The notes beneath the pieces are model-generated. The model ran no database searches. It worked only from the letters and a program-made list of their open reading frames with translations, and was not told the origin of the DNA. Below, piece after piece: positions 4,640 through 61,627 of a stretch of 64,000 bases of DNA. Positions within the stretch are counted from its first letter, which is position 1. Each line of letters opens with the position of its first letter. Source of the DNA: Nereocystis luetkeana. Taxonomy: Eukaryota > Sar > Phaeophyceae > Laminariales > Laminariaceae. The position numbers were made by a program, and so were the translations under genes. The stretch lies in assembly GCA_031213475.1 (NCBI GenBank), contig JARUPZ010000020.1:5567858-5631857 (forward strand). The letters run 5' to 3'.

Positions 4640-5690
4640 ACGCCACACCATCATCACTCTATTGTAGTAGGCGAACCCCCGCTACCAGGGTAACGCTCAC
4701 GTGGTTTGCGGTCTGCATTGGACAAAGCGAATGATAAACGATACGCCCTAGCAGGGTGGTGTTGTCGTGCTTTTGGCTCTGCGGCGAAGAGCACCAATAC
4801 TAAACTTTTACCAGGTACCTGGTGGTAGGCTACACCCCGCCAGCAACATAGCACTGGGCGTGCTCTAGGCTCTACATAACAAAAGAGCCGTCACACCTCC
4901 TCACTCAAGGCCTCAGCAAAAAATGAGCGGATGCGGTCATTCACGCCGCCTTCGTAGGCGCGCGTGGGCAGCTGTACTAGTCTAAACTGCCCGTGGATCG
5001 GCGGGGCCATTTTCATTTACCTATCCACACACGGTGCACCCCAATGCGAAAACAATCGCAATTGCGTAGTAGAAGAAAAAAAATAGCGGACGCCTAAGGC
5101 ACAAATAGAACATGAGTAGAAGGCTGTCGCAACAGCGTAGGCTGGAGAGAGAGAAAACCCGCAAGCGCGAAGGTACATGTGCGCACTCTCGGTTTCCCCC
5201 CCGAAAATCGTTGACGTGACACGCTAACATACACAGGCAAACCGACAAGAGCGCACACAATTGAACAAACGAGAGAACGCACAGGAGAGCATACACAAGG
5301 GAACATCTCCTAGAACGAGCAGAACACGAAAGACAACAAACGCGCAAACACACAAAACACACGAACACAAAACGCATCCCACACTCGTACGTAGCGCGCC
5401 GGCTGTACGAATGGAAGGCGACGCGGCAGCTGTCGAGGGAGCAGAACAGCTTGACCGGTCTCCCATCTATCGTTTTCTTTTTATCCGACCCGTGGTGTAC
5501 GCACTGACCCCCCCCCCTCCCATAAGAAAAACCTTATCCGAGACAATAGCGAAATATTGCACCACCGTCACCGCGCCCGCAATCCTCCCTCCACACGTCA
5601 CCATTCCCAGCGAAGTAGACAGGAGAAACTTTAGCTTGGGCGCGCGAATACCTCTATGGGCCTAAATATACCGATTTTAGTGTGTGGGGA
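4640..5690. other. gene-free stretch with A/C-rich segment
   Basis: TACCAGGTACCTGGT at 4810-4825. The + strand is A/C-rich at 5220-5390 with many ACACAAAC-like words and gives spurious ORFs on both strands. No coding signal is supported. Confidence 0.4.
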
Positions 5691-5694
5691 CGCG

Positions 5695-5800
5695 TGTGGG
5701 GGGTGTACTCAGGGAAGGCATGGCCGTAGTCGTATGACCATAGACGCGAGCATCCCTGCGTACGATACCGGAATGGAGCACGTCGGGTTTCAACCACCAT
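5695..5800 (-). repeat. poly(C)-tailed repeat, copy 3, partial
   Basis: Minus-strand fragment carrying the CATGGCCGTAGTCGTATGA end and CGGAGCACGTCGGGTTT. The distal half is replaced by unrelated sequence with a TACCTGGTACCTGGTA doublet near 5818. Confidence 0.5.
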
Positions 5801-6164
5801 CCGTTGCATTATATGATACCTGGTACCTGGTATAATTTTGTTTTCCAGCGACCTTGAGGTGGGCAAAAACGGCGACAAAGCCTGCAAGCTCCTCGGTAAA
5901 CATCCTCGAAGCACTGGTCTTCGAATCCACCGTACGGTTCAAGTAGTCCCCCCCTCCCCCCGTCAAGCATAGCTTGATTGTTGCGCGCTCAACAGCAAGT
6001 ACTGGTGAGTGTGTTCGATGGCGCGTCCCGCCCCGCTCTCGGTATATGTCTGAGAAAAGAGAGCCGCCTCCTAGAATACGCTGGCGTTCGACGCAAATTC
6101 ATGGTATTTCACCCCCCAGGACACAGCACCTAGAGGAGACGATGTTTGCCGCGGCAGCAGTGCG

Positions 6165-6375
6165 AGGGAGCGAACAGCGGCTCTCACGTTCTCAACGGAT
6201 CTCACGTTCTTAACGGCTTTTACGATATTAGTTGTTCTCACGCTTTCCACGACAATCACATTGCAAACGGTTCTCACGTTCTCAACGGCTCTCCCGGTAT
6301 CAACGGGCGGCCGTTACATTACCAGCGGCTCCCATGACATCAAAACGGGTTTGACGCCCCCAACGACGTTCACGT
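6165..6375 (+). repeat. imperfect ~20-bp repeats, TCTCACGTTCTCAACGG
   Basis: The unit TCTCACGTTCTCAACGG recurs with variation at 6181, 6197, 6235, 6271 and 6288, continuing as CAACG/TCACGTT words to 6372. It lies just downstream of the 3' end of the minus-strand gene. Confidence 0.5.
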
Positions 6376-6423
6376 TCCTATAGATCGTGTTCACTCCATC
6401 GCATAGGTTTTGCGTGGCGTGAA

Positions 6424-6929
6424 TCAAGCCTCCTGCGACATGGCGCCCCAGTCGTCCCAGGGGCGGAGCGCCAGGCACGGCAAACCTCCGTCTGCCGGGT
6501 CCGACGGGTCTGGCTCGTAGAACTCCTCCTCGGACCCCGAGCTGCTGCTCTCGGCATTGTCATCATCGATATCGTCATCGTCGTCATCGATATCGATACT
6601 CCGGCTGGCTGTGTTGCTGCCGCCGCTGCCGCCGCCGCAGTAGCGACCGCCGCCACCGCTATTTTCGTTGCCACTGCTGAAGCGGGAGGAGTAGGCCCCC
6701 TGACCCTGAAAGCGCTGTGCCGCCAGAGGTGATCCTTCCTGCGCCTCCTCGCGGGCGAGGCCGAGCGCGGCGGCGAAGAGGTTCGGGTAGACGTCTTCGC
6801 CGGGGTCAAGGAGGCGAGTAAAGTCGTCGTCGAACTGGTCATGCAAGCCTGTGGGGGACGCTACAGCCTGAGATGCGACAGCGGCGGGGGCGGCGGCGAA
6901 CGTGCAACCGAAGTGAAAGGCCGCGTCAG
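6424..6929 (-). CDS. last exon of acidic, low-complexity protein (minus-strand gene)
   Basis: Read on the minus strand, a long pyrimidine tract (complement of 6935-6965) and TCAG precede the exon, which then stays open for about 168 codons to a TGA at 6426-6424. The product has an N-proximal segment with DQFDDDFTRLLDPGEDVYPN, then a Gly/Ser-rich region. An Asp run follows (IDIDDDDDDIDDDN), then a Ser/Glu patch (SSSSGSEEEFYEPDPSDP), ending in WDDWGAMSQEA. The frame extends upstream to an ATG at 7179, but that part is pyrimidine-rich and more likely intron. Composition (GC-rich, CG-rich) is clearly coding-like. No known family is recognised; acidic tails of this type are common in nuclear or chromatin proteins, but function is not assignable. 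The terminal-exon call rests on the stop and the splice-like acceptor. Confidence 0.5.
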
Positions 6930-7232
6930 CTGACGCGTGCGGTGGGGGCCGGAAAAAAAAATCGTTTCGTTTTCTTCTATCGGTTTGCGATCGAAAATAC
7001 ACGTGTGTGGTCGCTAATTGTACTGTAGGAGTGCCTCTAAACAGGTGAGGCGAATGAGGCCTCGGTGTACTACCCCTGCCTCGGAAATGATTGTTATGCG
7101 GGTCATGTGCGATAGAAGGCGCCTCCCAGAAACCTACAAGCGCGGACGGTGGCGCTCGGCTGCGTGGGGGGGGGTTCAACGATAGTGGCTAGATGGCAGC
7201 CGAAGAGAGACGGTAAAGCTCTGCGCGAAAGC

Positions 7233-7390
7233 TGTGAGTCCGAGAACCAAAACAACTCTGTTGAGCGTTTGCTCCCGGCAGCGTCTCGTTGATCTCCCAC
7301 CATGTCTGTGCCCATCGTGTCGTCCATGTTCATCATGTTGTCCTCGTCAACCATGGCAGGCGCACTGGCGCAAGGTGCATCCTCATCCAG
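7233..7390 (-). CDS. probable internal exon of the minus-strand gene
   Basis: The minus-strand frame encodes DEDAPCASAP, then a Met/Asp-rich run (MVDEDNMMNMDDTMGTDM) and KRSTELFWFSDSQ. The acidic character matches the last exon at 6929-6424. The upstream edge could be an AG near 7391 (CTGGATGAG|). No consensus donor is obvious at the downstream edge, so the boundaries are approximate. It could also be a chance ORF. Confidence 0.3.
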
Positions 7391-7495
7391 AATCAAGCCG
7401 GGAGAGCGACCCCTCTGCCCGGCACCGAGAACGATACACCTTCCTTGGTTCGAATGCTCGCTCGAAGCACTCGGACTGGTGAGAATTGGGGCAAG

Positions 7496-7864
7496 TCAGG
7501 CGGAACGCGGAGAGATTAGATGGAACATATGACGCAGCGCCTCATATTCGGGTTCGCGCCGCTGATGGGGACTACTATCAATACGGTACCAGGTATGATA
7601 CAGCTCGTGTTGTGGTGAACTTGAGCTTTGAATCATACGGTACAACCCCTCACACAGGTCAAGTGTGTGCCGCACGCACCTCCGCGGGCTGTTTTCGCGA
7701 CGCATCAGCCACATGAAAATCTCGAAGTACTCGCACCCAAGGACGTACGCGACGGCGGGACACGCATCGCGGCCTGGTGTGTCGCTAAACCTCCTGCACG
7801 ATGCCAGCAGAGCTTCGACCAACACTGTTGCCCTGGAAATGAAATCCTTAATGATGGGGGTCAT
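7496..7864 (-). CDS. probable exon(s) of the minus-strand gene, unknown protein
   Basis: A 122-codon minus-strand frame with normal amino-acid composition: starts MTPIIKDFISRATVLVEALL, contains CPAVAYVLGCEYFEIFMWLM and RCVRHTLDLCEGLYRMI, and ends at a stop at 7498. A good internal acceptor (TTTCATTTCCAG|GG, near 7828) suggests an exon may begin there rather than at the ATG. The repeated Cys/His and hydrophobic helices look like a folded domain, but I do not recognise it. TACCTGGTA at 7584-7592 falls inside the frame (coding HTWYR). The real 3' splice point, and whether it joins the exon at 7.39 kb, is not resolved. Confidence 0.4.
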   Translation of the reverse strand: MTPIIKDFISRATVLVEALLASCRRFSDTPGRDACPAVAYVLGCEYFEIFMWLMRRENSPRRCVRHTLDLCEGLYRMIQSSSSPQHELYHTWYRIDSSPHQRREPEYEALRHMFHLISPRSA

Positions 7865-7869
7865 CCCTG

Positions 7870-8326
7870 ATTGATAAGCGTGGAAAACCTACAAAAGGAC
7901 GCACAATGGTAGTGGAATTTGGGAGTTTGGTCGCGCGCTACGAATGAGCGACGACTGACGGCTTGGGAGATGAGGGCAAGGACAACATCATACACTTGAG
8001 AGACGGGGCCCGTGCTATGAGCGTCACGGGGTGATTTTCACGAAAGAGAGAAATTTCGCATGGAGTGCCAATCTCTCTGCTACTTGACCCTTTTTTTACA
8101 CACGCACTCACATTTTGGGTCGAAACTACTTGGAATTAGAGTTGAGTAAGTTCTGGAGTGGTAAAAGGGCTGATGGGCCACTTTCGCTGCAAAATCAAGC
8201 CACTTTCGCTGCAAAATCATTCGCCCAAAACGACGAGTTCTTCTGTAAAAGGTTACCTGGTATGTGTGTTCCAAGCCGCAACTTCGTATGTACCTGGTAC
8301 ACGATTTCGAAAAGTAATGGCCCTCT
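7870..8326. other. gene-free stretch
   Basis: No supported frame. CCACTTTCGCTGCAAAATCA is duplicated in tandem at 8178-8220, and TACCTGGTA occurs near 8252 and 8290. Confidence 0.4.
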
Positions 8327-9359: not shown

Positions 9360-10378
9360 TGATAGGGGTTGTAGAAGTACATGAATTGCTTCACGAGATA
9401 CACATACATCCTGGGGTGTACTAGCAGCTGCTGTATTCTGGTCGTTTTTTCCTGTGGTTGGACATTGCCGCCGTGCTGGAGATACGTACTGGTACTATTA
9501 ATAATATCGTGACACTGCTGTATATAACCAGTTATACCCGCGTATGATACGTTATACGTATGCGCCTCCTTTCAACTCTCTCAGCCAGTACGGCTTTTCA
9601 CTATTCAAGGCATCGTATCATACTACGAGACGACGTGCAATATCCAAACACATGAGCAGAAGAATGATCGCTATCATCGTCGCGTATCATACGTGCCGTC
9701 AACGTGGGTGCTCGAAAGTCGAACCATCCCCCCTGCCTTGGTGGCGCACAACCATGCGATATATTATATCAGGTAGTGCCCTCGTCTCTAAAGCGGTTCC
9801 ACCCGTCGCGCAGCATCTTTCTGTTCCGCGCGACGCCCCCACGGAACCCCCCTTGCGACACCTTCTTGTGGCCGTAGCCGCCACAAATTAAATTTCGCAG
9901 ATTGCGCGAAAAACAACGTGTCACCGCCGTGTCACTACTGCTGTACGTATTCGGTACTCGTATTGCTGTAACTCTTACGAACCATACGGGTACGTATATG
10001 AGCAAGAAGAGGAACGAATGAACGCGTTCATTACTCGTAGTCATCAGCGTGTTACCAACCTGTCTTACGACACCTTCGTGTAAACTCGTTGTTGTTATTG
10101 TTCTCACAAACACTACTGCTGCTGTTCTGGTAACATACCTGATACCTGGTACAGACAGCGGTTGATAAGATCATACACAGTTATAATAGCAGTACATCAT
10201 GATACGATAGATAAAAACCAGCAGACATGACGGTAAGAAACGTACGATACGCCCCTCCTACTCGTAAATAGACCTGTGTCAAGGTGTATCCCCTGCAATC
10301 CATTGTACCGGTATTACTATTATAATACTGGTACCAGGTACACAGAGTTAGCAGTACATGTATGCATAGATACATGAG
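9360..10378. other. gene-free stretch dense in TA-bounded words
   Basis: TACGTACTGGTACTATTAATAATAT, TACTGCTGTACG, TACTCGTAG and TACCTGGTA all occur, with repeated ATACG/CGTATCATAC. No coding frame is supported. Confidence 0.4.
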
Positions 10379-12602: not shown

Positions 12603-12659
12603 GTATTAAAGGTGTTGGTGGCGGCTGCTGCTGCCGTTTTGTGCCTTGTACCAGGTATG

Positions 12660-13985
12660 TAATTTTGGTATTAATAGACGCTCTTCATACTTGAGGCAGC
12701 ACTTCCTTATTTATAGTACGTGGAAACATGTACCAGGTACCAGGTAGCAATCAGCTACCACACGAGGCTTTCGGTGTCGTTTGTGGCTCCTTTACACCAG
12801 CATGTACGAGTATGTACGTGGTCTGATCAATATTAAGTATGCCGATTCTCGTGTGCGCACCGCTGCTGGTGTATCGCCATATACCAGGTACGTACATACC
12901 TGTCGTATATACCAGGTATATGCCAACATCGCCATCATGTGATATCATTCGTATTCGTGTCTCGTGCCTCTCAAAAAGCGACAATTTTCTAATAAAAGGC
13001 TTCGACGTACAGCAGTACGCATACACATCAAATACCTACAAAAACTTCCAAAATTCAACCTCCGCTATCGGTACGAGTAGTCTTGTTTATGCCTGGTATA
13101 TACCAACAAATATAGCGGCTTGAGGAGGACCACTGCTGCACTGACCTGTACTCGCCAGTAAGGTACTCATGCAGGCCATACCGCACTGAAATCACCGACA
13201 CAGCAATGCCCGCTGCAGCCACTATTAATATAGCACCCTCGGCTCATTTGCGCCGCGTTAGGTGGATATCTCGGGCCCGAGTGCCTGGGCTCTGGAACGT
13301 GACGATTTTTTATATAACCTCTGTACTGCTATAAAATCAAACCGAAACCCCGGATCCATTCAAACCTTGCCGCTGATACTCTCCGTGCTCCGGGGCGGGG
13401 GGGAGGGCAGTCCCCTGTAGTGCCCGATTTCCTATCCTAATCGCTGGCCGCAGCGTATCATACGATTACGAACGAACGCATAGATAGCATGGAACGGCCT
13501 CTGGCCCTAGGGAGGTCCGCCCCGCCCCCTCCCTTCTGTCTTTATTACGAATAGAAGAAGCCAGGCACCCTCGTACCTGTTTTTTATACTATTAATACTG
13601 CAGTTTTACTTGCTGTCAATAATATGCTGAATATTTTGCGATGGTTGCGGGTCTTTGCCCTCATCACACACAATATTATTATGAGTACTTGTCCTATTTC
13701 CTATGATATACGTAGGGACTACCAGGTATTGCTGTTGTAGGTAGGGAATGCCCTGGGAGAGAGAGGACTTACGAAACGCGAGGTTTGTGTGTTTTTCAAA
13801 GCGTTCTTTCTACCGGTATTCACTCGTACCACCCTTCGACATCCAGCCCGCCGTATTCTTCATTTTTCGTCTCTCCGAATCCAGAAAGTACTTTGCTTGT
13901 TTTTAGATAATTATTTTCAATCTCTGTCTTGCATATTGCGTACGTACGGAAGAAGCGTCTCCCGAACAAGTAGTCAAATTTGATG
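12660..13985. other. gene-free stretch, very dense in TACCAGGTA-type words
   Basis: TACCAGGTA at 12649, an overlapping doublet at 12731-12746, and copies near 12882, 12910 and 13722; TATTAATA-like words at 13225 and 13588. No coding frame beyond short chance ORFs. Confidence 0.45.
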
Positions 13986-14929: not shown

Positions 14930-17900
14930 AACCACAAATATACGAACGACGCAAGGCTTGCAGGAAGAAAGAGGAAGAAGGAAAGTAAGAAAATAGAAGT
15001 AGTGGCGTTGCAGTCTATTATAGGTATATATATAATATATAATATATATATACCAGGTATATATACGAGGGTATATGGTTCTGTATATGCGGCGTGTTTC
15101 GCTCTTAGCTGCTTAGTAGTATTTCGGCTTGCTCTGTCTCACAACAGCAGTCGTGACGCCGTGACCACAAAAAAATGTTTCTCTTCTCGATGCAGATGTA
15201 CTCGGCGTGGGATGAAGATTCAAGACGGAGGCTACTACAGTAGTAACTGCTGTGTATGTTCTTCAGTACTAAATGTCGTCCGATAGGAAGAAGTGTTTTC
15301 TAGTGTCAAGACCACACAACACGTAACACAACGCGCGTTGCGTTCGATACTGACGATTCAAGCTGTACACCAGCTATTTTCAGCTTATAATATTCATACC
15401 TCGTAGAAGTACTACAGCGGTATTAATAGTGCCGTAACATGACTTGTGCAGAGGTGTAGCTACAACAGTCAGTATCATTAAATAGTATTACTTAATACTT
15501 GTTGGGTGAAGCGGGGGGGGTGTCTAAAAAAGCACACTCGCGCTCCTTGTCCCTACTAAACTCTGTTATGGACTACTTGCCTGGTGTGTGTGAAGAGAAC
15601 GAACCGCTGTCAAGTTTGGAAGATTAGTCCCTGAAAAACGGCGGTGGTACCAGGTATTAAAAGTCCGGTACATTCGGAGTACAGGTATATATTGTGGTAT
15701 ATTCGCTCGGAAGTTTATTTTCACGTGGTTTTCCAGGTATCGTGGTGTGAAGTGTACTTTACACCGGTAATGTTATTGTTATGTGTATTTTGACCAGTTT
15801 GGGGAACGCCGGTCCGGTGTACTTGTTTTACTATCTGTAGGAGCCTTATTATTTGTAGCAGCGGCAGCAGCAGCGAGGTAAGGGCCGAGTCCCATGCATG
15901 ATACCCGCGCAGTTAAAATTTGGTACGCATGATACCGGGGCGGATTGAAGAAGGTACACGCGAGAGGCGGTCCGGAACTTATCGGCCATTGTCACAGCTA
16001 CTTTTAGTGCACAGGCAGTACTGAATGCTGAAGCAGCCCTTGCTACTACTGCTGCTGCTGCTGCTGCTCCTGCACACTACCGACCCGACGCTATCATGAC
16101 AACGCATGCCAAAAGAATGAGCCGTACAAAAAAACCAAGCCTTAGCCTCGACGGGATGAAGGAATTCAGGCGCGGTTGTACTGAAATTAGTGTTGAAGAC
16201 ACCTTCTGAAATACCAGGTACCGTATTGAATTTACGCTCCTATGTCGTACGAAGCATACAACTCGTAGTACGAGCATGGGCCTGATTCAGGTTATACTTT
16301 GATAGAGAGGGCCGGTACTGATACTCTGCGGCGAATTTAATGAATCTATATATCTGCTTACAGCAGCGGCATTTCTAAAGACTTGATTAATACCCACTCG
16401 AACTGCCCGGCCGTCTGACCGACGTTCTTCACTGTCCGCTGTTGCCTTGGAAAGTCGCAAGGTCTTTGGGTTTGTCTTTCAGTTCGTTTTGTTTTGCCCC
16501 CACCTACCTGTCGTGGTCTTTGAACTATTCCCCACCTTCAAATCATGGTCTTTGAACTATTCCGTGGCCCATCGGACATGGTATCATACCCGTCACAAAA
16601 ATAACACGTTGCACTGTGGATGCACCTGGTGCTGCAAAGTCGATTACTTTTTCGCTGTCTCCCTCCGATTTTTTAACACCTGGTAGGATTCACGACTGGA
16701 TATGTACATGGTATCCATTTGTTTGTGCAGGTACCCGCGGGACACTCGCTGTGGGCTTTGGGCTGTGGCAAAATGAGTCCGAAAACTTGCTTGGTTAATC
16801 AAAGTTGTACCCATAATATAGGATAGAAGAGAGCAAGAGTTGTAAATTTCGAGTAAATGACTCCCTTGTACCGGTAGTTATGGGTTTTAGAGCCCGGTTA
16901 GAGCTTCTCAGCTATGAATGTCAGCAACGAATACAACATCCTATCCAGCAAGTGTGACTCGTATGGTGTGGATTCATACGCTGTACTCGGAGTATTTCGG
17001 TACGGTACCATGGGTGTATATTTGTCACTTGCATACATACTAGTACTGCTGTACCGGTATACTTTCGGCGCCGATTAAGCAGCGATGCTAAAAATACTAC
17101 TATAATATGGTAAGTAAACCTTGAGGGTCTAGTCGTGCCATTTTGCGAAGTATCGGCTACAAGTAGTACCAGGTACAGCACGGTAGTTGTCCTCACACTT
17201 CACGTCAAGCTCATGTCCAAAATGTTGAGTCCGTGGCGGTCACTGGTCACTGGACAGGCTCCCAAAAACTGGAGCGGAAGAATAGGTCAGCGAAAAAATG
17301 TCGCAGTCTTGAAATCAAAGAATACAAAACAGAGTCAGATACACATCATAATAACTGAAACAGCATTGCACATCTCCAACAGGAGAAAGTCAAATCCTTG
17401 CACGATTTGCATCCTATAAATAGTCCGATAGGGGCAGTCTTGCAGTACGAGTACCTGTGTAAAACTATTTAACTTGTAACTTTACATATTTTTAATAGTG
17501 TACCATATGGTATATATGTATACAGCACGAGTGAGATGTCGGGGTCTGATCGTGATTATGTTGCTGTTTTCACATTTTCGACTTTCGACTGCACACGCAA
17601 TTTTGATTATAGTTTATGTTCAGTATACCCTTTTGCCCTTGCCTTGTTGACGGAACCCAGATCGTCACTAATATTCTACAGCAGTAGCAGTATACAGTAC
17701 CCAGGATCAATCTACAGGTACTATTGGAATATGGTATGGACAGGTCCTTATTATCTCTGCTGTGCGCTTGGTTTTGGTGTTCGCTGTGTTCTGTCTTTTC
17801 GTTCATTTCTTGTTTTTTCTTCTGTTCTGATCAGTATTATATCTGCCGTAAAATATCTAGATCGTGACGTGGGAATCGATTACTTCTCTGTCGGACAAAG

Positions 17901-22499: not shown

Positions 22500-24600
22500 T
22501 GTTCAAGGTAATTTGCTAAGAAACGCCGGAAAACTCCTTCTAACGCATTTGGCGGGTCGTTTTAGCCGTTAGAGAGCCAACACGTATTCCTTACGGATGT
22601 GTGTGTAAACGCATGCCATGTCCAAGTTGTTTGCCCCAAAATGACTCGTACAGATGAAATAATACTTTTATAAACACACTAAACTGCGGCGATAACATCG
22701 TGAAATACGTTTGAGCCTGCGACATGGAACATACCCTCCCCCCCCCAAAAAAAACACCTGCCGCGCAAGAGGCGCCGCCACATTTTCTTTGGCCTGCAGC
22801 GAAACTTGTTGTGCAGTTTTAGTTGCGTGTTGCGCAGTTTTGATTGCGTTTCGCGCATATGAGTGATTTCGCGGGAAAAGTTGCGCTGCACCCAAACTGG
22901 ATTCCTGGAGCACACCTGCCTGGGCAGAATTTCCGACCCAGTTTGCTCCATATCAATGAGGGCACACACAAGGAATATCGACCAGATAGTTCCTGACAAA
23001 GATGTCGGTGGTAGCAGTTTGCATCGTCCCCGCTGTCGAGAAAATCGGCTTGGAACAAAAACACCGTCTGAGGCGTCTTTTAGTATTTCGTGTTTTATCG
23101 TACCTGGCTTAGTTCATGTACGGCGGGAAATGAAAGGTTGAAAGGAATGATAAGTCTGCCCAAGCAAGTGAATGATGTACCGTGTATCACGCAAGATGAT
23201 TTCAAAGCCGGTTTTATGGACAATGGGCAGAGCGTGAACGTGGCTGACTGAGATGTCAGTAGCGATTACAGCGTCGTCAGAACCATCCTGTACACTGGAT
23301 TGCAGCAGTAAACTGTCCCCCCTCTACTCTCTCACTCTCTCCCCACGAAACGTATCATTGGGTTTCCGTACTTTAATATGGCGTGTTTCTTGCACCCTAC
23401 GCAAGGTAAAAACGTGCCCAGCTCTACTAAGTGTATGTATTGGATGCCGAGCAACGCGTGGAACGATATCAGCAAAAAAGTTTCAAAGCCATCAATTTCG
23501 TTGTGTACTTCCCTTGCTTTGGAAAAAATCGACTCCGAAATTCGTCCCAGGGGTTGTGTTGTTTTCTTACCACATGTGTGCTATCATACTTACGGTAGTA
23601 TATTTGCTCACGAGGTGAAATGGTACGTGGACATGGTGAAAACACCTGCTTGTTCCGATTACGTATCACCCCGGCTGTCTCATGTCACCGGCTTGCGGCT
23701 ATCGTCGGTTCGTGGATTTGTGGTGCATTCGTTGCCCGGCGGGCCGTTGCTGTGTCGGTTCATCTCCATACCGGTATATTTTGAAGGGGGTGTGGGGGGA
23801 GGGGGGGGGGGTGGGGTGTCGGTGTCCGGTGCTGTTTTGCGTACCATTGATGCATTACGTATGAACGACACCCGGACGACGTGTTCGTGTGTCGGGGGGA
23901 AGGGATGACGCGCTGCGGCGCCACCAGAGACGGAACAGCCAATCACCACCAGTGATCATCAGTCGTGATGACGATGCGACGTTGTAATGATGACGTCCTG
24001 ACTGAGAGTATATACTTGAGATACGGAGTAGAATCTCGTGTGTTTGTTTTTACACATTTTTGCCGTGGTGTGTGTGTCCGGTATCCACTCTGTTCCGTGA
24101 GATAAGGTTGATTTCCATATCCATAGTTTATTGAAGTGGTCCTGATATTTTTCGGGACATGAATGTTGATAGGATATATATGTGTGTTCGTACGACTTTT
24201 CGCTCAAAACAGCAGTGTATATTATTGATTATACTGCTGTACGAGTACGGGGTGATATTACCTGGTATATCGTAGACGAACTGGTTGCTGTAAGCTCGAG
24301 CATCTTTCATGCACCCAGGCCCGGCCGGGTGTGTACGGTGCGTCACCTGATATTCATTGCCGAGTTCGTACTACTGCCGTACACAAATACGCGCCCTCCC
24401 CCTAGGATTGCACCGCATTGCCAAGATGCTGCGACCTGTGGTATCGTTACTATTGGTAGAGTGTTACTACTATTAATACCAGGTAGTTAATGTCTTGTTG
24501 TGAGTCATGACCCATCAGGTACGAGTATTTTATACCACTTTGTCCGTCAATTTAAGGATATTTTTTGTATGTCAATATTTCATCAAAACGAACCTTCCAC
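22500..24600. other. gene-free stretch with one weak ORF
   Basis: An ORF at 23378-23908 (176 codons, with YGSIFAHEVKWYVDMVKTPA) ends in a G-run artefact and has no recognised domain. A G-run lies at 23787-23813. ATTCGTCCCAGGGGTTGTG near 23540 matches the repeat of 35.76 and 44.64 kb. Confidence 0.3.
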
Positions 24601-24699: not shown

Positions 24700-25735
24700 G
24701 GCAGAGTGGTACCTGGTATTGGAAAGATGAGTTTCGAGGAAATTACGATTTTTTCGATTTGAGACGGATGCTTCTTAACAGTGGAACCACGTTGTTTGAA
24801 AGTTCAGTTTCCAATAATCTGCTTTCAACAAACAGCTGAAGAAGTTCTCGTGCCGCCGCTGTGGGATAAAAGGGAAAACGTGTTGGATATTTTTTGATGC
24901 GGCTGCCTGTACGCGGCGCAATCCGTACTTTCTCGTTGTAAATTTGTCTAAGCCGCTGATAGATCAGCTCGTGCTACGATAGCCCTTCGGACTCGACACA
25001 GCCTCAACCCACGGTCAACCCGCTTGGTGTCAGGCAAGGCCAACGAATGTAGATGTCCTCGAAGATATCAGGCGAATCCGAGGTCAAGGGGGCAAGAGCT
25101 TGCCGGCAGCGCCCTACGCTCTTTCTCCCCAACCTGAGAAGAAAAACATTTTTGCCGTCCGGGAGGGATCGAGAATTCGTCTGTTTTCTACACAGCAGCG
25201 GCTATTCTGATGTTTTTTTTTGTCATACGTACGCCTGGCCAGTGCCCGCCACATATATATATTACCGGCCATCGTCCGAATGATCACTGCTTGCTGTGAC
25301 CCCAGGGTGGGTCGGAGCGCGTGAAGAGCGCGCCCTGTTCAGAGGTCATGACGAAGTTGTTTGTTTAGTCGATCGTATGTCTGTCGAGGACTCGGAATCT
25401 CGCCCCTTGAAATTGAACATTTCGTCGAGTTTCTCTCAAGCCGATCTTCACTCAACATCGTCCCACCCAGGATTTTTGTTGTTGTTTTTTTCCAAAGTTT
25501 GTATGCACATACGTTACGTTTCTCTTTGAAGAATCGTGCTCATAGCGAGCGGGAATGAAATACTCTCCCTGGGGCGGATTTTTTTCAATTTTTTATTTCA
25601 ATTTTTTCATGAAAGCGATGCGTTCTCGTTGTAGTCGGTCTCTCACAGCTGGGGAGTTTTTTGTTAATGTTTTTTTTTTTTCCAATCGACTGCAGAAAGC
25701 GCCTGGCGTGTGCGTACAACTACCAGGTACCCTGC
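24700..25735. other. gene-free stretch
   Basis: T-runs and unremarkable sequence; no coding frame supported. Contains the partner of the older repeat seen near 20.1-20.6 kb. Confidence 0.35.
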
Positions 25736-26210: not shown

Positions 26211-26358
26211 ACGATTTTATATTTCTAGGGAGGGAGAAGGAGAGGAAGGGCAAAAATTATACCTGGTACACCTGATGAGCAACACAAAAATAAAGAACGC
26301 ATCCGGGTGGGGGGGATGGGCTTGGGCAGGGTGGGAGTTTAGGAGGGTTGTTGGTTCA

Positions 26359-26568: not shown

Positions 26569-26828
26569 TGTGTTGGGTGTTGGCTTATACCTGGTATATA
26601 TGTTGGTCCGCACCTTCAAAAATGATACCATGTACTTTATACCTATATATATAATAGCATAAAAAAACGAAAACTGGTATTTCATTTTTTCGGAATATGT
26701 ATGGGGTGTGAATCAGAGACACATGTAGTGTAATTACAATTGTTTTCGCTGTACTTTATAGGCGTATCTGATACGCCCATGCCCGTGTCAATCGGTACGG
26801 GTGCTGATGATGCGGACTGACTTTCATC

Positions 26829-28311: not shown

Positions 28312-28653
28312 GAGAGAGATAAGAGTGAATCGAGGCACAGCAGTATCATACGAAAGAAAATTTATTGGCCTGATATAGGATGTGTACCGGATCTAATCTA
28401 AAAAGAGCACCATAAAACAAACACGATCGAGAAAAATCGCGAAAAAGTAGGAAACATACCTGTGGTATCATACGTACTGCTGTACCTGGAGTACCTGGCC
28501 ACTGCTGCTGCAGGAAAGAGAAGCATCGAAACTATTTTCTTGTAATATAACACAAAAAGATAGATATATAGAACAAATATAAAACACGATCGTAGACATA
28601 CCTGGTACGTAGTACTGTAAGCTGTTTGGTACCATTAATATCATCAATATTAT

Positions 28654-28772
28654 TATTACGGGGGACCATCGTTAATAGGACCTATGGTATATAGATAAAA
28701 AACCTACCAGGTATATATTTAACCATTTTTACTAACAACACTTGGTCCCATTAACTACGGTCCCCCGTAATA
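28654..28772. mobile_element. TA-MITE copy 2, with TACCAGGTA insertion
   Basis: TATTACGGGGGACCATCG to CGGTCCCCCGTAATA. At 28705-28713 it reads CCTACCAGGTATATATTTAA, where copies without the insertion read CCTATATATTT: a clean 7-bp CCAGGTA insertion at a TA. Confidence 0.85.
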
Positions 28773-28807
28773 GTATTATTATCATACCTGGTAGTATTTA
28801 CGTTGCT

Positions 28808-29175: not shown

Positions 29176-29595
29176 CAGCAACATCTGTTCATTTACTCCC
29201 GTTGATAGCGGGAAGAGCGGAGTTGTTACGTGCGCTAATGCAGGCAGCATTTCCACCCTTCCCACATAATATTCCATACGATTCATACGCATCACATACG
29301 ACCAGGTACCAGGTATATATTTTATACGCAGGTATGATGATACACCTCGTAAATAATACCAGGTATATATATATAGCCAGTATACGACGAGTATTGATAC
29401 CTGCTGCTCGTATGTAATAGTAAGTGTGACGTGCTAGTTTTTTTTATTACTATTTGGACACGCGAGCGATGTTATGATTTTGGAGTACATACTGCTGAGT
29501 CTGCCGAATTTCTCCACAGGACCAATAATCAGGACGGACACTTGGTCTACTTATGCAGTTGGGTAGAAATCAAGTTTTAATGTGAAGACAACATA

Positions 29596-30618: not shown

Positions 30619-30783
30619 ATGCAAACGATTCTTACCGTTCGAGACTGAATGGTACCCGGTTATTTTCGTTTCCGGTACGAAGGCCTTTCATGTGTTGGCA
30701 GTTGGGATATATATTTACGAAGTACCAGGTATATATATATGTGCATATACGTACCCGGTATCGTATACTTCGAAGTATATATA

Positions 30784-30810
30784 TACCAGGTACCAGGTAT
30801 ATACCAGGTA
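30784..30810 (+). repeat. triple TACCAGGTA cluster
   Basis: TACCAGGTA at 30784-30792, 30791-30799 (sharing a TA) and 30802-30810. Further TACC/GGTATATA words surround it (30720-30760). Confidence 0.8.
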
Positions 30811-31200: not shown

Positions 31201-32450
31201 GCACATAACATAACATACACCACTCTGAACGGAAATGGGAGGACTGTTTGATATCCAAATGTGTGCCTCAACGGTTCTTACATTTCAGTCCATAGTGGGA
31301 GGTATTCAACGACGCCCAGGAGGCCTAATTTGGAGTTCAGCCCTCGCTGATTCTTGATGCTATATATATATACCGGTCACGGAGAGATGCGGTGCCAGTT
31401 TATATATATATGTGGCAGATTACGAAAGCAAAGAAACATCGTGGGGCTGTCGGTTTGTGTGTGAGTTGCCTCCGCATTAAATCGTCTTTTCTATTATTAA
31501 CACCCAGCTTTATCAGTAGACCCAGTGTTCGTCCTGATTTCTTATCCTAGAGAGAGAACTATTTTGTTTGGTCACAGATTGAGCCAGGTGAATTCATGTT
31601 CGATAAATGTGAGGACGAACGGGTATTCGGTACATACGCGAGTACCTCAGAGAGCGTCGAGTGGTTGAGCCCGACATGGGGTGCGATGGTTTTCCAGCGT
31701 TCAATCCCTCGGCAACGGTACGCGTGGCATGTCAAGCCGATTTTCGAGGAAGGCTCTCCCCCGGCCAGATACTTCCGAAAACACCCTACTGGTAGTTCGG
31801 TTCGTATGATGCTGGCAAACCTTTCTGGTCCTGGAAGATTCGAGCACTGAAAAACGATCGCGTCCCTCTGCGAAACCAAAAACGCTTTTTACGGTGGTGT
31901 ACATGTTGTGTACGAGGGGGGGAAAGAGACGGCACCTGTGACTACGGCTTGTCCTGAAGGTCGCTGAAGGCTGAGAGGGTAAAGCCAGGCGAAGTTGCGT
32001 GAGCGCAAGCTGTGGCGAAATTCGATAGTAAAAGTCGACGAGCAGTCGTAGGAACGCTGAACGCTGGACTCTCTCCGCGCGCTGAATGGAATCAACTGCT
32101 TGCCGTGTACGGTGGGGGGGGGGGGAACGCAGTGTGGCCACTTTTTGTCCAGGAGGCCGCTACTGATTGTGAAACCCCCCACCAGGTACCAGGTATTACG
32201 GTACAGAACGTTGTTGAGTTGGCGCAGGGGTGCGGTGCTATCGTTCGTTAGCGCTCGTTTTTTTTCCCAGAGCGGGAAGGGAAGGTTGCCAACACCGAAC
32301 AGGAAGGCGTTTTCGGAAAGGGTCTGATCGAGAGAGAGAGCCCAACGAAAATATCGTGTTCGGCTTTGAGAAGCACGGTTTCCGTCCGTGGCGAGAAGAA
32401 CGAGCGCTGCGAAACGATCGCGCCTAACCCCGTGCGAACTTGACGCCTTT
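31201..32450. other. gene-free stretch
   Basis: A CAGTGTTCGTCC fragment at 31510-31560, TATATATATACCGG near 31365, a G-run at 32105-32125 and ACCAGGTACCAGGTA near 32180. ORFs overlap on both strands, with no support for a gene. Confidence 0.35.
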
Positions 32451-34138: not shown

Positions 34139-34254
34139 TATTTACGGGGGACCGTGGTAAATAAGACCTACGGTCTACTCAAAAACCTACCAGGTATATA
34201 TTTAACATTTCTATTCACAATATTTGGTCCTATTTACTATGGTCACCGATAATA
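34139..34254. mobile_element. TA-MITE copy 5, with TACCAGGTA insertion
   Basis: Same insertion point as copy 2: TACCAGGTA at 34188-34196 in CCTACCAGGTATATATTTAAC. The shared site means a common ancestor copy or a preferred site. Right end eroded (GGTCACCGATAATA). Confidence 0.8.
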
Positions 34255-34336: not shown

Positions 34337-34507
34337 TGTCTATTCAATAGGAGACATGTCAAGCAAAAGGCGAAACGTGCGCTGTCCAGGGCGTGGGGCC
34401 GGTTGTTCCAGACTTGAAAACCTACCCGGTAGTAATTTGGCGTCAGTCAAGCCATGCCAAGGCGAAGTTGTCGTCTGTCGAGGGGTGAAACTGCCGTCTC
34501 CTGACAT
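34337..34507 (+). mobile_element. ATGTC-MITE copy 3, end interrupted by 8 bp
   Basis: The left terminus should read ATGTCAGGAGACA but reads ATGTC, then TATTCAAT, then AGGAGACA. TATTCAATA occupies 34341-34349. The right end GTCTCCTGACAT is intact. The centre contains TACCCGGTAG. Confidence 0.65.
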
Positions 34508-35239
34508 ATTTGCTTTTTTTCCCCTCTCAACAGGGTTACCGCTCTGGATCTGGACGGAAATATAAGGACCGCTTTGTTTTTATATTGACGTCTAAAGCAT
34601 CCATATATTTCCGTCCATAGTGATGGGTGTTATACGCGTGGTAGGTACGTGCGTCCCAGGTCCCAGGCATACTGCTGTATTTGTACGCACGTCATTCCTG
34701 ATTAAAACAACTGCTGTAAGTGTAAACTCCTTTGGGCTGGTCGGTGCTACTTTTTTGCTGGATTTACTCGCCCGATGGCTATATGATTTTTTCGGCTTTG
34801 CGAGCTTTCAAAGTTTTTTTTTTTTCTTTTTAATGCTATTCGTTCTTGCCCGGTGGCCACGTACGCACGTACGTACAAGCGCAGCGGGTACGAGGAAAGA
34901 CCGCCTGCTTGGTTGACCCTTTTCAACTTGCGACGCCTCCGAGATTTCAAATCAACCAAGATCCCGAGGAGGGAATCCAAGATCCCGAAGAGAGAATCTT
35001 GTACACTGCTGTACCAGGTATACGATAGTGCTAGAAATACGATATCGGAAATCACGATGAATCGAAGATCGCATCGGTTATCAAATCGGTATACTAGGTA
35101 TAAAGTATCCCGATATCCGATATTAACGCCTTTGCTTCTAGCGGGGAGGGAGGGCGTGTTGCTCTATTGCCCCCCCTCCCCCGCCCCCCACCCACACACC
35201 AGGAAGCAAATCGAGTTCATTCGAAGCTTAAATCCGTTG

Positions 35240-36187: not shown

Positions 36188-36419
36188 TTAAAAGGGGCAC
36201 ACGCAACGAAAAGGGTGGCTTGGAACGATTTCGTCGAGAAGGTTGCATAGACGCGTTGGTCGGCGTATACGCCCTCCCCCTTATTACGAAACCCAGCTTT
36301 GAAAGGAGTCCGAGGGGGTGTGGTATCTTATCACCCGGTGTGTTATACGGTGGTAGTTGGAGCTGGTTGGAGCTAAAAGCTGAACCGGTACAGCCGTTTC
36401 ACAGCTCGGACATATCGTG

Positions 36420-43913: not shown

Positions 43914-44029
43914 TATTACGGGGGACCCTATTAAATACCAGGTAGGACTTATGGTACACACAAAAAGCTATATATTTCGCTATTTTTACCAACAATATTT
44001 GGTCCTATTTACTATGGTCCCCCGTAATG
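43914..44029. mobile_element. TA-MITE copy 8, with TACCAGGTA insertion
   Basis: TACCAGGTA at 43936-43944 in TTAAATACCAGGTAGGAC, where uninterrupted copies read TTAATAGGACC. The same site is hit in copy 15. Confidence 0.85.
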
Positions 44030-44141: not shown

Positions 44142-44269
44142 TATTACGGGGGACCATAGTTAATAGGACCAACTATTGGTAGTAATAGTAAAAGTGGCTA
44201 AATATACTCGTATAGGTTTTTATGTATACCATAGGTCCTACCAGGTATTAACTATGGTCCCCCGTAATA
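44142..44269. mobile_element. TA-MITE copy 9, with two or three micro-insertions
   Basis: Against copy 3 it has CTCGTA inserted at a TA (TACTCGTA, 44205-44212) and CCAGGTA inserted at a TA (TACCAGGTA, 44239-44247). A 6-bp TAATAG extension (GTAGTAATAGTAAAAG) may be a third. Otherwise nearly identical to copies 1 and 3, and only 112 bp from copy 8. Confidence 0.85.
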
Positions 44270-44700: not shown

Positions 44701-44850
44701 AAATCCCCTACCCTATTCCGCACATCGGACATGCTACTATTAATAATAAGATTTAGATCATCTATATCCTAAACTGCCGCTCTGAGGTGCTGTGCAGGAT
44801 CTATTTATTAATAGTACAGATTTATAACCTACCTGGTAGACAACATGTCC

Positions 44851-45504: not shown

Positions 45505-45812
45505 GGGATATTGATACCAGTATACTGGAATATATATATACCAGGTATATACTATCGATAGTACACTGGAGTGTAAGTACGAGGGTACTGGAATATAGGT
45601 ATACACCAGAACGTTGGAATAGAAATACTACGTAGGACACTGGAATATTTTTAACAGTATACTGGAATATAGTTACCAGTATACTGGAGCATAGAACCCC
45701 AGTATACTGGAATTTAGATACCAATATATCGGAGCATAAAACTCCAATATACTGAAATATAGATACCGGTACACTGAAATATAGATACCAGTATACTGGA
45801 ACTTAGAAGAGG
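45505..45812 (+). repeat. ~22-bp minisatellite, TACTGGAATATAGATACCAG
   Basis: About 12 units with core CCAGTATACTGG (palindromic) and variants GAGCATAGAACCCC and GAACTTAGAAG. Contains a TACCAGGTA near 45540. Confidence 0.8.
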
Positions 45813-46055: not shown

Positions 46056-46153
46056 ATAATACCAGGTAGACGCCTTGGGAGTGCTTTATGGGGTCAAAGC
46101 CTACCAAGTTTTGTACACGCCAGTTTTCGGGTTTGGTATAGATAAGGGTAGGG

Positions 46154-53241: not shown

Positions 53242-53710
53242 GCAAGGGGGGAAGAACAGTGCATGGCACCTCTTGATTCGGTTTTGGTTTGGGTTGGTAG
53301 TTTTGGTGTTGCTTTTTGCCTTGCTTTGCTGTGATTAAGGTCACCTTGCCTTGCCTTGGCCGTGCCGCGCCCTGGCTCGGTTGTTCTAGTTTTTGTGGTC
53401 TGTTTTGTTGTGTTTTCCGGCGTGCGCTTGTTGGTGGGATGGTATACGAAGTACTCGTATTATTTTCAGAACCGCTGTCCGCGGTTGATCCCTGAGTTTT
53501 TCAGGACGGACACCTTGCCGATGACGTAGACGGCTGAAGTACACGCTACTGCATTGTTGACCCTATCGTCAGTAGTAATGCCGGCATCAATAAAACTGAC
53601 ATCGTTGTCGTAAGAACGCCACTTGCGAGGGGGCGGGGGGGGGGACAGAACGGATGCATGGCTATTGTCGTACCCGATACCAGTACTGATGTTTCAATGC
53701 TCCTTTTTAA

Positions 53711-53799
53711 CCCTTTTAGTACCGCAGTCCCGATGTGGGGGCAGACTACTTGAAATTTGACTGGTCTGTCCCCAAGACGGGACTGCGGTTCTAAAAGGG
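53711..53799. mobile_element. TTAA-MITE copy 18
   Basis: TTAA at 53707-53710 and 53800-53803; intact arms. Confidence 0.8.
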
Positions 53800-53841
53800 T
53801 TAATAAGGAACCGCATAACTAAGAGCAAAAAAGAACTGGTC

Positions 53842-54797: not shown

Positions 54798-54917
54798 CGG
54801 AGGGGCCATAGTAAACACGACCTACGTATGGTACAGACAAAAAAAACAACTATATATTTCCCCTTTTTTACCTCAAATATTTCGTCGTACCAGGGTATTT
54901 ACTATGGTCCCACGTGG
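54798..54917. mobile_element. TA-MITE copy 14, with TACGTA insertion
   Basis: Eroded left end (CGGAGGGGCCATAG). CCTACGTATGG at 54821-54831 where copy 2 reads CCTATGG: a 4-bp CGTA insertion. Also a TACCAGGGTA near 54889 (variant). Confidence 0.75.
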
Positions 54918-56481: not shown

Positions 56482-56597
56482 TGTTACGGGGGGCCATATT
56501 TAATACCAGGTAGGACCTACGGTACACACAACCACCTATATATTTCGCTATTTCTACTGACAAGATTTGGTCCTATTTACTATGGCCCCCCGTAATA
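56482..56597. mobile_element. TA-MITE copy 15, with TACCAGGTA insertion
   Basis: TACCAGGTA at 56504-56512 in TTTAATACCAGGTAGGACC; same site as copy 8. Confidence 0.85.
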
Positions 56598-56860: not shown

Positions 56861-57349
56861 CGCAGTATGGTATGTACGTAGGCTCTTTCTTATCCACCCC
56901 CCCGTCATTTGCTCCGTCTCCAAAGGGATGCGTGGTCAGTGGTCAAATGACTGAGGCAAGCAACAAATGAGTACGCACCCCCCCCCCCCCCCACTACGAT
57001 TAGTGCCTTTCATTTTCGTCGCGAGAAGACCGCAGCAGCCCCTCGTGTGGAATGTACCAGGTAGCATACAGAATACAACGGGAGATTCGCCAATGCGTGT
57101 GCAGGGGGGCTGCGCGAAAAGAAAAGCACGCTCCGCTCCTATTCCTCTCTCACCTGATGAACATGGATAAGTTGTTGTTGTTTTTGTTGTTTTTGTTGTT
57201 GTTGTTGTTGTTTTTGTTGTTTTTTTACGTCCTTGTTTTTTTTTTTTTTTCTCTCCATCCCCTGTGTCGTCGTCCCCTTTGTTTCTTCTCGCTCATGGTA
57301 TATGTCGTTCTCTTTGTTTCTTCTCTCTCATGTTATTTGTCGTCTCTCA

Positions 57350-58352: not shown

Positions 58353-58469
58353 TATTACGGGGGGCCGTAGTAAATAGGACCAAATACTGTTTTGGTGAAA
58401 ATGGGGAAATGTTTAGGTTCCTGTGTTATCGTAGGCCCTACCTGGTATTTAATATGGTCCCCCGTGATA
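58353..58469. mobile_element. TA-MITE copy 17, with TACCTGGTA insertion
   Basis: CCCTACCTGGTATTTAATATGG (TACCTGGTA 58439-58447) versus CCTATTTACTATGG: CCTGGTA at the TA, the opposite orientation of the word in copies 8, 9 and 15. Confidence 0.8.
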
Positions 58470-58844: not shown

Positions 58845-58852
58845 GTATATAC

Positions 58853-59652: not shown

Positions 59653-60064
59653 GTTAAGTTTAATGTGTGGACTTTTTTTCGCGAAATCGAATATATCATT
59701 CATTCGGTACGGCTTTTACTGGCAGTATGGAATACCTACAGCAGTAGAACATGTATATATACTTGGAGTATATATTTTCATGGCATTTCAATATGGTGGT
59801 TCTTTTGTGCACTATTTACCGGTACTGTCAAGTGTTAAATACCTGGTACCTGGTATGTGACTATCGCCGCCGGGACGATTTTCTCTTCTGTTTTTTTCCC
59901 TTCTCTATTCCTTCATGCTTCATGCCTTGTCTCTGTTTCCTTCCCCCCTCCCCGCCGTCTGTGTGCCGGTTCCTTCCATTCCTTCGTATTGCTTCGCCCG
60001 TTGAGCAGCTATCTGTTCTTCTCGAGTACCTACGAGTATTTCTTATTTATTTTATTTATTTTTT

Positions 60065-60213: not shown

Positions 60214-60477
60214 TATATACCTACCTGGTACCCTTTCCTTCTTTTCATAGCAGCCTTTCTCAGTTCTGTTCTCTGATCTCCTTGCGTCAGTTCTGTTCTG
60301 TTTCATTTCATTTCGTTTCAGTTTTTTTTTTTTTTTTGTATTTCTGTTCTGATTGTTTGGTCGTTGCTCGTGTTGTTGTCTTCTCGTACCCGGTACGCTG
60401 GTATTTCACTCGAATTTTGTGATTATTTGTTCGCCTTTTTTTTTTTTTTTTTTTGTCTCAACATTATTAATAGTATC

Positions 60478-60545
60478 TCTAGGATGAGGAATCAGGACGG
60501 ACACTGGGTGTACTGATGAAGCTGGGTATGAATAGAAACACAGCA
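60478..60545 (+). repeat. CAGTGTCCG-family copy without TATTAATA
   Basis: CTAGGATGAGGAATCAGGAC, then GGACACTGGGTGTACTGAT, then TATGAATAGAAACAC; the empty-site counterpart of 27870-27877. Confidence 0.5.
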
Positions 60546-60624
60546 CACACCCTCTTGAATTATGATGTACTGGAATGTACTATTAATATTAATATTTATA
60601 ACACTTTTTGTTTGTGAGTTTGTT

Positions 60625-60714
60625 ACCGCTCTGTCCCGATATATAGATGCTACCCTGGTATTTATATACTACTATTTAATACAAAACTACGTTATATTTC
60701 GGGACAAGAGCCGG
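60625..60714. mobile_element. small foldback with CGCTCTGTCCCGA ends
   Basis: CCGCTCTGTCCCGATATATA and TATATTTCGGGACAAGAGCC are inverted over about 50 bp. It abuts the head of the SINE-1 copy at 60713. Confidence 0.5.
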
Positions 60715-61052
60715 TCGCCCCGGTGGTTCAAGTGGTTAACCTCGAATTCTACTTGTTTGAGTCCTGGGTTCGAGCCCCAGGTGGGTCGGACTTTGACTTT
60801 ATTTGCAAAAATAAAAAAGGATTCAATTGTTGAGAGCGCCTTGCAGCGTGGGTAGGCACAATTCGATGCGAGTCGACGAGGGAAGAAAAGGCTGAAATCT
60901 TCTCGCGATAAAAATGAAGGCACGTACCGTAGCGGGAAGGGGGTAGAAGAGCCTGCTATGTAACCCCGGATCTGAGTTACGAGTTGGAAGGAGAGAGAGA
61001 AGAAGATGTGCGAAGATAATGAATGGGATGAGGAAAATAAAAATAAAAAATA
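60713..61052 (+). mobile_element. SINE-1, full length, third copy
   Basis: Intact tRNA-like head (B box GGTTCGAGCCCC, T stem CTGGG/CCCAG) and body; A-rich tail GAAAATAAAAATAAAAAATA. The best copy for consensus building. Confidence 0.85.
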
Positions 61053-61065
61053 GTGGTACCAACTT

Positions 61066-61160
61066 TTTTTAGTGCCGCAGTCCCGTTGTGGGGACAAAAT
61101 AGTCAAACTTCAAGTAGATTGTCCCCATAACGGGACTGACTGCAGTTTGCCTTAAAAAGT
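61066..61160. mobile_element. TTAA-MITE copy 20
   Basis: TTTTTTAGTGCCGCAGTCCC and CGGGACTGACTGCAGTTTGC; a 4-bp GACT duplication in the right arm. Confidence 0.6.
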
Positions 61161-61222
61161 CACGTGGACATTCTGAAACAGTCCATACCCTGGAACACTC
61201 TGTATGGCGACTATAGCAGTGT

Positions 61223-61342
61223 TTTTCGGGGGACCATAGTAAATAGGACCAAAAAATCTTGGTAAAAATGGGGAAATATAATGGTTTGTGTACATCGTAG
61301 GTCCTATTTACTACCTGGTATTTAATGTGGTCCCCCGCCAAT
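61223..61342. mobile_element. TA-MITE copy 19, with TACCTGGTA
   Basis: Reads CCTATTTACTACCTGGTATTTAATGTGG: TACCTGGTA plus a short re-duplication of the neighbouring TATTTA, so not a simple insertion. Confidence 0.75.
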
Positions 61343-61627
61343 AGATCATACCCCAGAAGCCACAGAGCTGAAACAATAGTAAAATCAAGGCCTGCTGTTG
61401 ATGGGATTACGAATGATGATTTGAATTGCAGCTGTTGATGCGATTGCGATGATCGGAACTACAGCAGTCGCGATTATTCAAGTTCAAAAATTTACTGGCT
61501 GGTACCTTGTTGGTACCAGGTATTTTTTTTCTCGGTTGTTGTTCCCCCAAGCCTGCATCTGAATACCTCGCTCTCGTTTTGATTTTGTTGTGTTGTTTTA
61601 AATTTGACGCGGTTCACCGGTGGGCAG

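Follow-up and report, generated by a model that had tools for sequence, protein, structure and literature searches.

Why does a 64,000-nucleotide stretch of contig 20 of Nereocystis luetkeana (JARUPZ010000020.1, positions 5,567,858 to 5,631,857; hereafter the window) carry the word TACCWGGTA, five base pairs between two TA dinucleotides, over and over again? A preliminary description had reported about 50 such words between positions 4800 and 61510 and had read them as a minimal mobile insertion of 5 bp plus a duplicated TA. We followed up this proposal in the window and in the 465-Mb eukaryotic genome from which it comes, the single genome examined. Exactly 50 words were counted, 33 with an A centre (TACCAGGTA) and 17 with a T centre (TACCTGGTA). 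The swarm occupies the reported span, its true extent being slightly wider (2745 to 61522). The doublets at 5817/5824, 12731/12738, and 59840/59847, the cluster at 30784/30791/30802, and the six words in the TA-MITE family of miniature inverted-repeat transposable elements (MITEs; words at 28705, 34188, 43936, 44239, 56504, and 58439) sit where that description placed them. As set out below, the words are probably scars, repaired after a cut-and-paste DNA transposon had come and gone, or later copies of such scars.

The number of words in the window far exceeds the 0.40, 0.78, and 2.6 expected under Markov models of order 1, 3, and 4, respectively, so that the enrichment survives low-order controls. 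At orders 5 to 7 the enrichment disappears, as the words themselves feed the counts on which those models are built. Across the genome TACCWGGTA occurs 182,395 times compared to 1,744 times for the reversed pattern, and doublets, in which two words share a TA, occur 15,917 times compared to 2 for the control pattern, as expected if new words land in the TA of old ones. Further counts were made in a 282-kb sample consisting of the window, twenty 10-kb stretches (L009-L028), and six of eight 3-kb loci (L005 and L006 were dropped because they overlap L004). In this sample the word is 47-fold enriched, whereas its one-mismatch neighbours at non-central positions are enriched only 0- to 3.6-fold, once 6-fold, which argues that the word did not arise base by base. 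None of 134 words lies in an open frame of at least 300 codons compared to 7.5 expected, part of this frame length being one stretch in L015 that is open in all six frames. A functional motif, for instance for binding or CCWGG methylation, that selection or local mutation had spread would suit a word that is palindromic and very frequent. The weak neighbours speak against it, as do the 7-bp insertions or deletions (indels) at TA as which the words appear inside repeats, and we regard this explanation as extremely unlikely.

Whether the words are inserted or ancestral was judged from sister copies in which the corresponding site is either empty or filled. Among 132 usable words of the sample, an empty sister was found for 17 and a filled sister for 9, with 102 and 18 matches, respectively. 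Controls drawn from 600 random TA-N5-TA sites whose five inner bases were of three or more kinds (n = 590) gave the reverse picture, with an empty sister for 28 and a filled sister for 109 (52 vs. 1,173 matches). The count for the words leans on one repeat family, because 7 of the 17 are TA-MITE words that supply about three-quarters of the 102 matches; of the rest, four or five are located in tandem or TA-rich DNA. When all TA-X-TA words with X from 3 to 7 bp were screened under stricter conditions with dust filtering, CCAGG was top among the 5-mers, with six sites having more empty than filled sisters and the runner-up having one. Of its 134 sites, 7 had an empty and 6 a filled sister. The top words of other lengths were TTAA among 4-mers (five sites), TCA among 3-mers (four sites), and CCAGGG among 6-mers (2 of 11 sites). 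For the 4-bp form CCAG/CTGG, 2 of 33 sites had an empty and 2 a filled sister. TA-TCA-TA/TA-TGA-TA, with an empty sister at 4 of 60 sample sites and a filled one at 5, may be a class of 3-bp footprints.

An alignment of 32 TA-MITE copies showed words at four different TAs, each of which is bare in most copies. At two of these sites some copies contain CCAGG and others CCTGG, and the words at 43936 and 44239, which share one MITE site, have opposite centres in MITE orientation. Further products in the same alignment are CCAGGG, CCGG, CTGG, and CGAG. In another repeat with six copies, CCTGGTA is present at a TA in one copy and absent from the other five; the TA is exactly bare in three of these, and the local sequence differs slightly in two. 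Relative to its sister copies, the CCWGG word is thus an insertion at TA with the TA duplicated, and the alignment and the empty-site counts agree that the words were inserted rather than inherited from an ancestral repeat. A dispersed and recurrent insertion of 5 bp plus a duplicated TA, as originally proposed, is backed by genome counts, empty sisters, and the MITE alignment alike.

The other part of that proposal, that the 5-bp unit is itself mobile, was not supported, in view of the ambiguous centre, the mixed products, and a transposase-like target preference. On such a view a minimal insertion sequence would be copied from word to TA by some enzyme, which would explain why words are dispersed, recurrent, and TA duplicating and are found in the TAs of earlier copies. 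To our knowledge, a unit of 5 bp is too short for an enzyme to distinguish its ends from the target. Moreover, the mixture of CCAGG, CCTGG, CCAGGG, CCGG, and CTGG in one MITE family resembles the outcome of repair, as does the A bias seen in the 6-bp form, and a full-size resident transposon accounts for the second swarm described below. We therefore consider a mobile 5-bp unit most unlikely.

The reading that we favour is excision. An element would insert at a TA, duplicating it, and would later be cut out by staggered cuts, so that both flanks keep short single-stranded tails from the element ends, either 5'-CCAG or 5'-CCAGG. End joining would anneal these nearly self-complementary tails, and the central A:A mismatch would be fixed either way, yielding TA-CCAGG-TA or TA-CCTGG-TA. 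Annealing further out of register would produce the rarer CCAGGG and CCAGGGG, and new elements re-using the TA of old scars would create doublets. We favour this reading because the word is a near-palindrome with an ambiguous centre, because the target preference is symmetric, and because both end-slippage by-products and doublets re-using a TA are present.

The product spectrum can be compared with the pairing of such tails. Two 5'-CCAGG tails pair C:G, C:G, A:A, G:C, G:C, and repair would therefore yield CCAGG or CCTGG; a slip by one would give CCAGGG or CCCTGG, never CCTGGG. TACCWGGGTA occurs at 13,000 places in the genome on both strands (reversed pattern, 771), and 93 of 100 among the matches listed are the A form TACCAGGGTA, seven of the 93 lying in one 528-bp tandem array. 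The excess of CCAGGG over CCTGGG and the range of products in the MITE are those expected from short-tail joining. With a 4-nt tail, 5'-CCAG, that anneals out of register by one base, the same words would be expected and CCAG/CTGG in addition. Both tail lengths fit the words, and the source ends are therefore given as CCAG followed by any fifth base.

The target preference was determined from 229 half-sites after removal of word-like flanks; not all of them are independent, as repeats share flanks. A or T is favoured at position -7, A at -6, A at -3, and T at -2, and T is rare at -1 (chi-square values of 28 to 71), a symmetric pattern resembling that of a transposase. Doublets make up 8.7% of the words compared to 1.4% if insertions landed in word TAs at random, an excess that fits the target preference because the word recreates a TA at -7/-6. 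Doublet types were counted by hand at 59 distinct places among the 100 matches listed, where TACCAGGTACCTGGTA was found 14 times and TACCTGGTACCAGGTA 5 times, the first being the one that the target preference predicts to be commoner. Target preference, TA duplication, and a scarcity of full elements would likewise result from abortive integration, in which a transposase joins or processes ends at a TA without full insertion and repair leaves 5 bp and the TA duplication. A product that is symmetric and retains both TAs requires the two ends of an element, however, and the closest route documented in the cited part of PMC7827188 is excision after full insertion. Abortive integration is therefore quite unlikely in our view.

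Several words appear to have been inherited. On contig C1 (1305185-1308362), TACCAGGGTA recurs seven times at an exact spacing of 528 bp, and this tandem array looks like the carrier of an inherited 6-bp scar. A decayed-looking word, TACCAGGCA, is common to two repeat copies. Scars thus seem to be copied as DNA and not remade in each body. This bears on programmed DNA elimination, by which elements resembling internal eliminated sequences (IESs) would sit at word TAs in the germline and the sequenced tissue would show their imprecise scars. Such a process would account for the fact that no full elements were seen, and it gains from the precedent of ciliate IESs, which are TA bounded and related to Tc1/mariner. 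If every soma made its scars anew, they would differ from one unit to the next, so the constant 528-bp array speaks against elimination, as does the shared decayed word, and we judge it very unlikely.

A second swarm serves as a positive control for the excision reading. The word TATTAATA (TA-TTAA-TA) occurs 93,112 times in the genome compared to 10,689 for its reverse; it is sometimes embedded in CTATTAATAG. At 79 sample sites there were 30 empty and 8 filled matches, with 14 unmerged matches to simple repeats. After dust filtering, 5 of 80 sites had an empty sister (23 empty matches) and 1 a filled sister. The TTAA word, too, is thus an insertion at TA relative to its sisters. On the outside, the TTAA word is flanked by C in 80 of 160 half-sites, compared to a fraction of 0.20 for TA in general.

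A search of the genome with PF13358 (DDE_3) gave 30 matches at E≤10 and none at E≤0.001. Ten copies of one family (L049-L058, L061-L063) have DDE_3 matches in open frames of 437 to 515 codons and are 99.1 to 100% alike in the comparisons printed, some of them perhaps not being independent insertions (L051 and L055 share a flank). Each stretch by itself matched with an E value of only 0.006 (24.5 bits), and together with its frame neighbours reached 36.7 to 37.3 bits, above the cut-off of 28.6. The left ends of three copies read TTACGGAGGCTCATAATTAGTAGG, two following TA and one following TAT; the right ends of ten copies carry the matching inverted end, with CCGTAA-TA in seven. The terminal inverted repeat (TIR) of this Tc1/mariner-type family, TTACGGAGG... 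(5'-TTACGG), matches the TA-MITE ends, which are C flanked in 21 of 37 cases, and the element is about 4.3 kb long as derived from locus coordinates. The genome thus contains a resident element with TIRs, a TA target, a DDE_3 transposase, and ends able to give the TTAA word. This young family is the apparent autonomous partner of the TA-MITE. Because 3-base tails 5'-TTA slipped by one pair two bases, they would give exactly TTAA, so that TA-TTAA-TA matches, in its shape and its C-TA preference, the footprint to be expected of the resident family and its MITE. A scar of the MITE with its ends fused, TACTATTAATAGTA, had no copy in the 282-kb sample.

The TTACGG family is not the source of the CCWGG words, because its ends and target preference differ. 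A source was sought among genome places with TACCAGGV (7,659), TACCAGGM (29,307), and TACCAGGT-not-A (17,643), of which the 100 places listed for each, all on contig C1, were considered; the reversed controls were unusable, as they meet other repeats, and TACCAGG was perhaps one base too strict. Scanning the 282-kb sample for TIRs brought up MITE families, but no CCAG-ended one among the matches listed and in the end-type tally, barring the word-derived CCAGGT. PF01359 had no match in the genome, nor in a control genome. PF13358 matches exist, yet the ten copies read end in TTACGG and not in CCAG(G); a further distinct match lies in a 599-codon frame on contig C17 (about 1,214,216-1,214,719).

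Individual candidates were rejected. The repeated ends in L029 (1-2727) belong to a large inverted duplication with arms of 817 bp that are 99% complementary and 1.1 kb apart. In the end pair of L030-L032 the repeat homology extends past the TA, the pair of L037-L038 lies in DNA that resembles a long interspersed nuclear element as judged by eye, and that of L040-L041 is an apparent decayed word within a repeat. A 315-bp MITE-like segment bounded by CCAGG (L043-L048) has flanks common to all six copies, and its exact empty or scarred site gave no match. In L007 (2208-2236), a 29-bp segment with a word half at each end, TACCTGG-15 bp-CCAGGTA, is possibly a remnant of incomplete excision.

Several observations weigh against excision scars as we propose them. 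The search turned up no mobile element whose ends read TA-CCAG(G): TACCAGG was looked for in the listed genome places and the sample, and TACCAG followed by another base in the sample only. The 315-bp candidate failed its empty/scarred-site test. Same-orientation doublets (40 of 59; binomial P = 0.009; three classes, chi-square P = 0.006) exceed the prediction for independent events. The centre variant TACCSGGTA is about 8-fold in excess in the 282-kb sample, an excess not foreseen by the mismatch model; the 16 sites of the variant had no empty and two filled sisters. In the control family, the last bases of 3 of 10 right ends deviate from CCGTAA-TA, and the TTAA word requires tails annealed one base out of register. 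Finally, pogo-element footprints are given as 0 to 4 bp and likened to those of SB and ZB in the cited part of PMC9976928, a range that the CCWGG words, with at least 5 bp, exceed unless the tail is 4 nt long and annealing slips by one.

As no source was found, we infer the excision step for the CCWGG swarm, together with the tail length and the source element. By their sequence the words behave like Tc1/mariner footprints, and we do not claim that the source was a Tc1/mariner element. A bolder version, which we hold only tentatively and think somewhat doubtful, is that of a hit-and-run "ghost" transposon, which nearly always leaves again, so that scars far outnumber surviving copies and are its main trace.

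If the words are scars, the genome preserves a legible record of past rounds of insertion and excision, as many as ~180,000 for one transposon type and tens of thousands for the type behind TTAA. The events would be fewer than the words because some words were copied inside repeats. From such a record, the rules of target choice and the outcomes of end joining could be read in a natural genome, with no experiment needed. The number of copies of a cut-and-paste element could then be far too low a measure of how active it has been, and a short indel at TA might be the scar of a transposon and not a slip of replication. Should the ghost reading be true, the commonest dispersed insertion of a genome can be five bases long, and scars can count past transposition that is invisible to repeat annotation. 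No report of a comparable footprint swarm was found in the parts of the open-licence literature searched, preprints being outside its scope.

The sites in the window are compiled in the table. The window also contains a 91-bp MITE family with ends TA-ACCCYTTTAGAACC or near (25782-25876, 30892-30986, 33688-33782, and 53708-53802), a tandem array with the 41-bp unit CGCCTCTGCGCATACAACTCA... (62563-63151), and a 291-bp unit in tandem duplicate with 99% matches (35665-36248). Of the 114 window frames, 62 were scanned against Pfam without a match; 9 other frames yielded a reverse transcriptase and a match below threshold, and the Rfam and tRNA scans of the window were both empty.

Table. Words and related products in the window
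Feature	Positions	Strand	Basis or remark
TACCAGGTA word	2745..2753	+	pattern count
TACCAGGGTA, 6-bp-core product	4683..4692	+	
TACCAGGTA word	4809..4817	+	pattern count
TACCTGGTA doublet (5817, 5824), TA in common	5817..5832	-	
TACCAGGTA word	7587..7595	+	
TACCTGGTA word	8254..8262	-	
TACCTGGTA word	8291..8299	-	
TACCTGGTA word	10143..10151	-	
TACCAGGTA word	10332..10340	+	
TACCAGGTA word	12649..12657	+	
TACCAGGTA doublet (12731, 12738)	12731..12746	+	
TACCAGGTA word	12882..12890	+	
TACCAGGTA word	12910..12918	+	
TACCAGGTA word	13720..13728	+	
TACCAGGTA word	15051..15059	+	
TACCAGGTA word	15648..15656	+	
TACCAGGTA word	16212..16220	+	
TACCAGGTA word	17167..17175	+	
TACCTGGTA word	24259..24267	-	
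TACCAGGTA word	24477..24485	+	
TACCTGGTA word	24710..24718	-	
TACCAGGTA word	25721..25729	+	
TACCTGGTA word	26260..26268	-	
TACCTGGTA word	26588..26596	-	
TACCTGGTA word	28599..28607	-	
TACCAGGTA word in TA-MITE copy (~28654-28772)	28705..28713	+	bare TA in most sisters
TACCTGGTA word	28785..28793	-	
TACCAGGTA word	29307..29315	+	
TACCAGGTA word	29357..29365	+	
TACCAGGTA word	30723..30731	+	
TACCCGGTA, centre-variant word	30752..30760	.	
Three-word TACCAGGTA cluster (30784, 30791, 30802)	30784..30810	+	
TACCAGGTA word	32187..32195	+	
TACCAGGTA word in TA-MITE copy (~34142-34253)	34188..34196	+	sister comparison, alignment
TACCCGGTA, centre-variant word	34423..34431	.	
TACCAGGTA word	35012..35020	+	
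TACCAGGTA word in TA-MITE copy (~43914-44029)	43936..43944	+	sister comparison, alignment
TACTCGTA, separate TA-CGAG-TA insertion in MITE copy (~44142-44269)	44205..44212	.	16 empty sister matches
TACCAGGTA word in TA-MITE copy (~44142-44269)	44239..44247	+	sister comparison, alignment
TATTAATA, second-swarm member	44806..44813	.	
TACCTGGTA word	44830..44838	-	
TACCAGGTA word	45539..45547	+	
TACCAGGTA word	46060..46068	+	
TACCAGGGTA, 6-bp-core product in TA-MITE copy	54888..54897	+	23 empty sister matches, no filled sister
TACCAGGTA word in TA-MITE copy (~56485-56597)	56504..56512	+	sister comparison, alignment
TACCAGGTA word	57055..57063	+	
TACCTGGTA word in TA-MITE copy	58439..58447	-	sister comparison, alignment
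TACCTGGTA doublet (59840, 59847)	59840..59855	-	
TACCTGGTA word	60222..60230	-	
TACCCGGTA, centre-variant word	60387..60395	.	
TACCCTGGTA, 6-bp-core product (= TACCAGGGTA on minus strand)	60651..60660	-	
TACCTGGTA word in TA-MITE copy, fourth MITE site	61312..61320	-	alignment
TACCAGGTA word	61514..61522	+	

Among known systems, the words resemble the footprints of Sleeping Beauty, whose excision leaves TACAGTA/TACTGTA (PMC4378557) and whose tails, like those of mariner, are 3 nt long (PMC7827188). According to the cited parts of these two papers, the likeness extends to a TA on both sides, terminal element bases in between, a near-palindrome, and an A/T-ambiguous centre. The differences are that three bases are present there and five in the CCWGG words, and that Sleeping Beauty was studied in a laboratory screen with a known element, whereas the 182,395 words counted here belong to a natural genome in which their source element was not found. 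Stowaway and mariner-like footprints of grasses, as described in the cited parts of PMC1925063 and PMC4561436, likewise consist of short end fragments between TAs, with repeated gain and loss at one site; unlike the swarm, the grass intron case is a single locus with unequal fragments of two ends. The resident Tc1/mariner family and its TA-MITE share the TA target and combine TIRs and a DDE_3 transposase with the expected footprint TA-TTAA-TA, but have TTACGG ends and a C-TA preference, in contrast to CCAG(G) and R-TA-Y with A/T at -7/-6 for the CCWGG swarm. For Ectocarpus, the cited part of PMC12477816 describes Mariner-Tc1 elements including the autonomous 4.4-kb TcMar-2_Ec32, abundant non-autonomous copies, and a 217-bp MITE; the terms "footprint," "excision," and "CCAGG" do not occur in its main text. 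In size, TcMar-2_Ec32 is close to the resident element of Nereocystis luetkeana.

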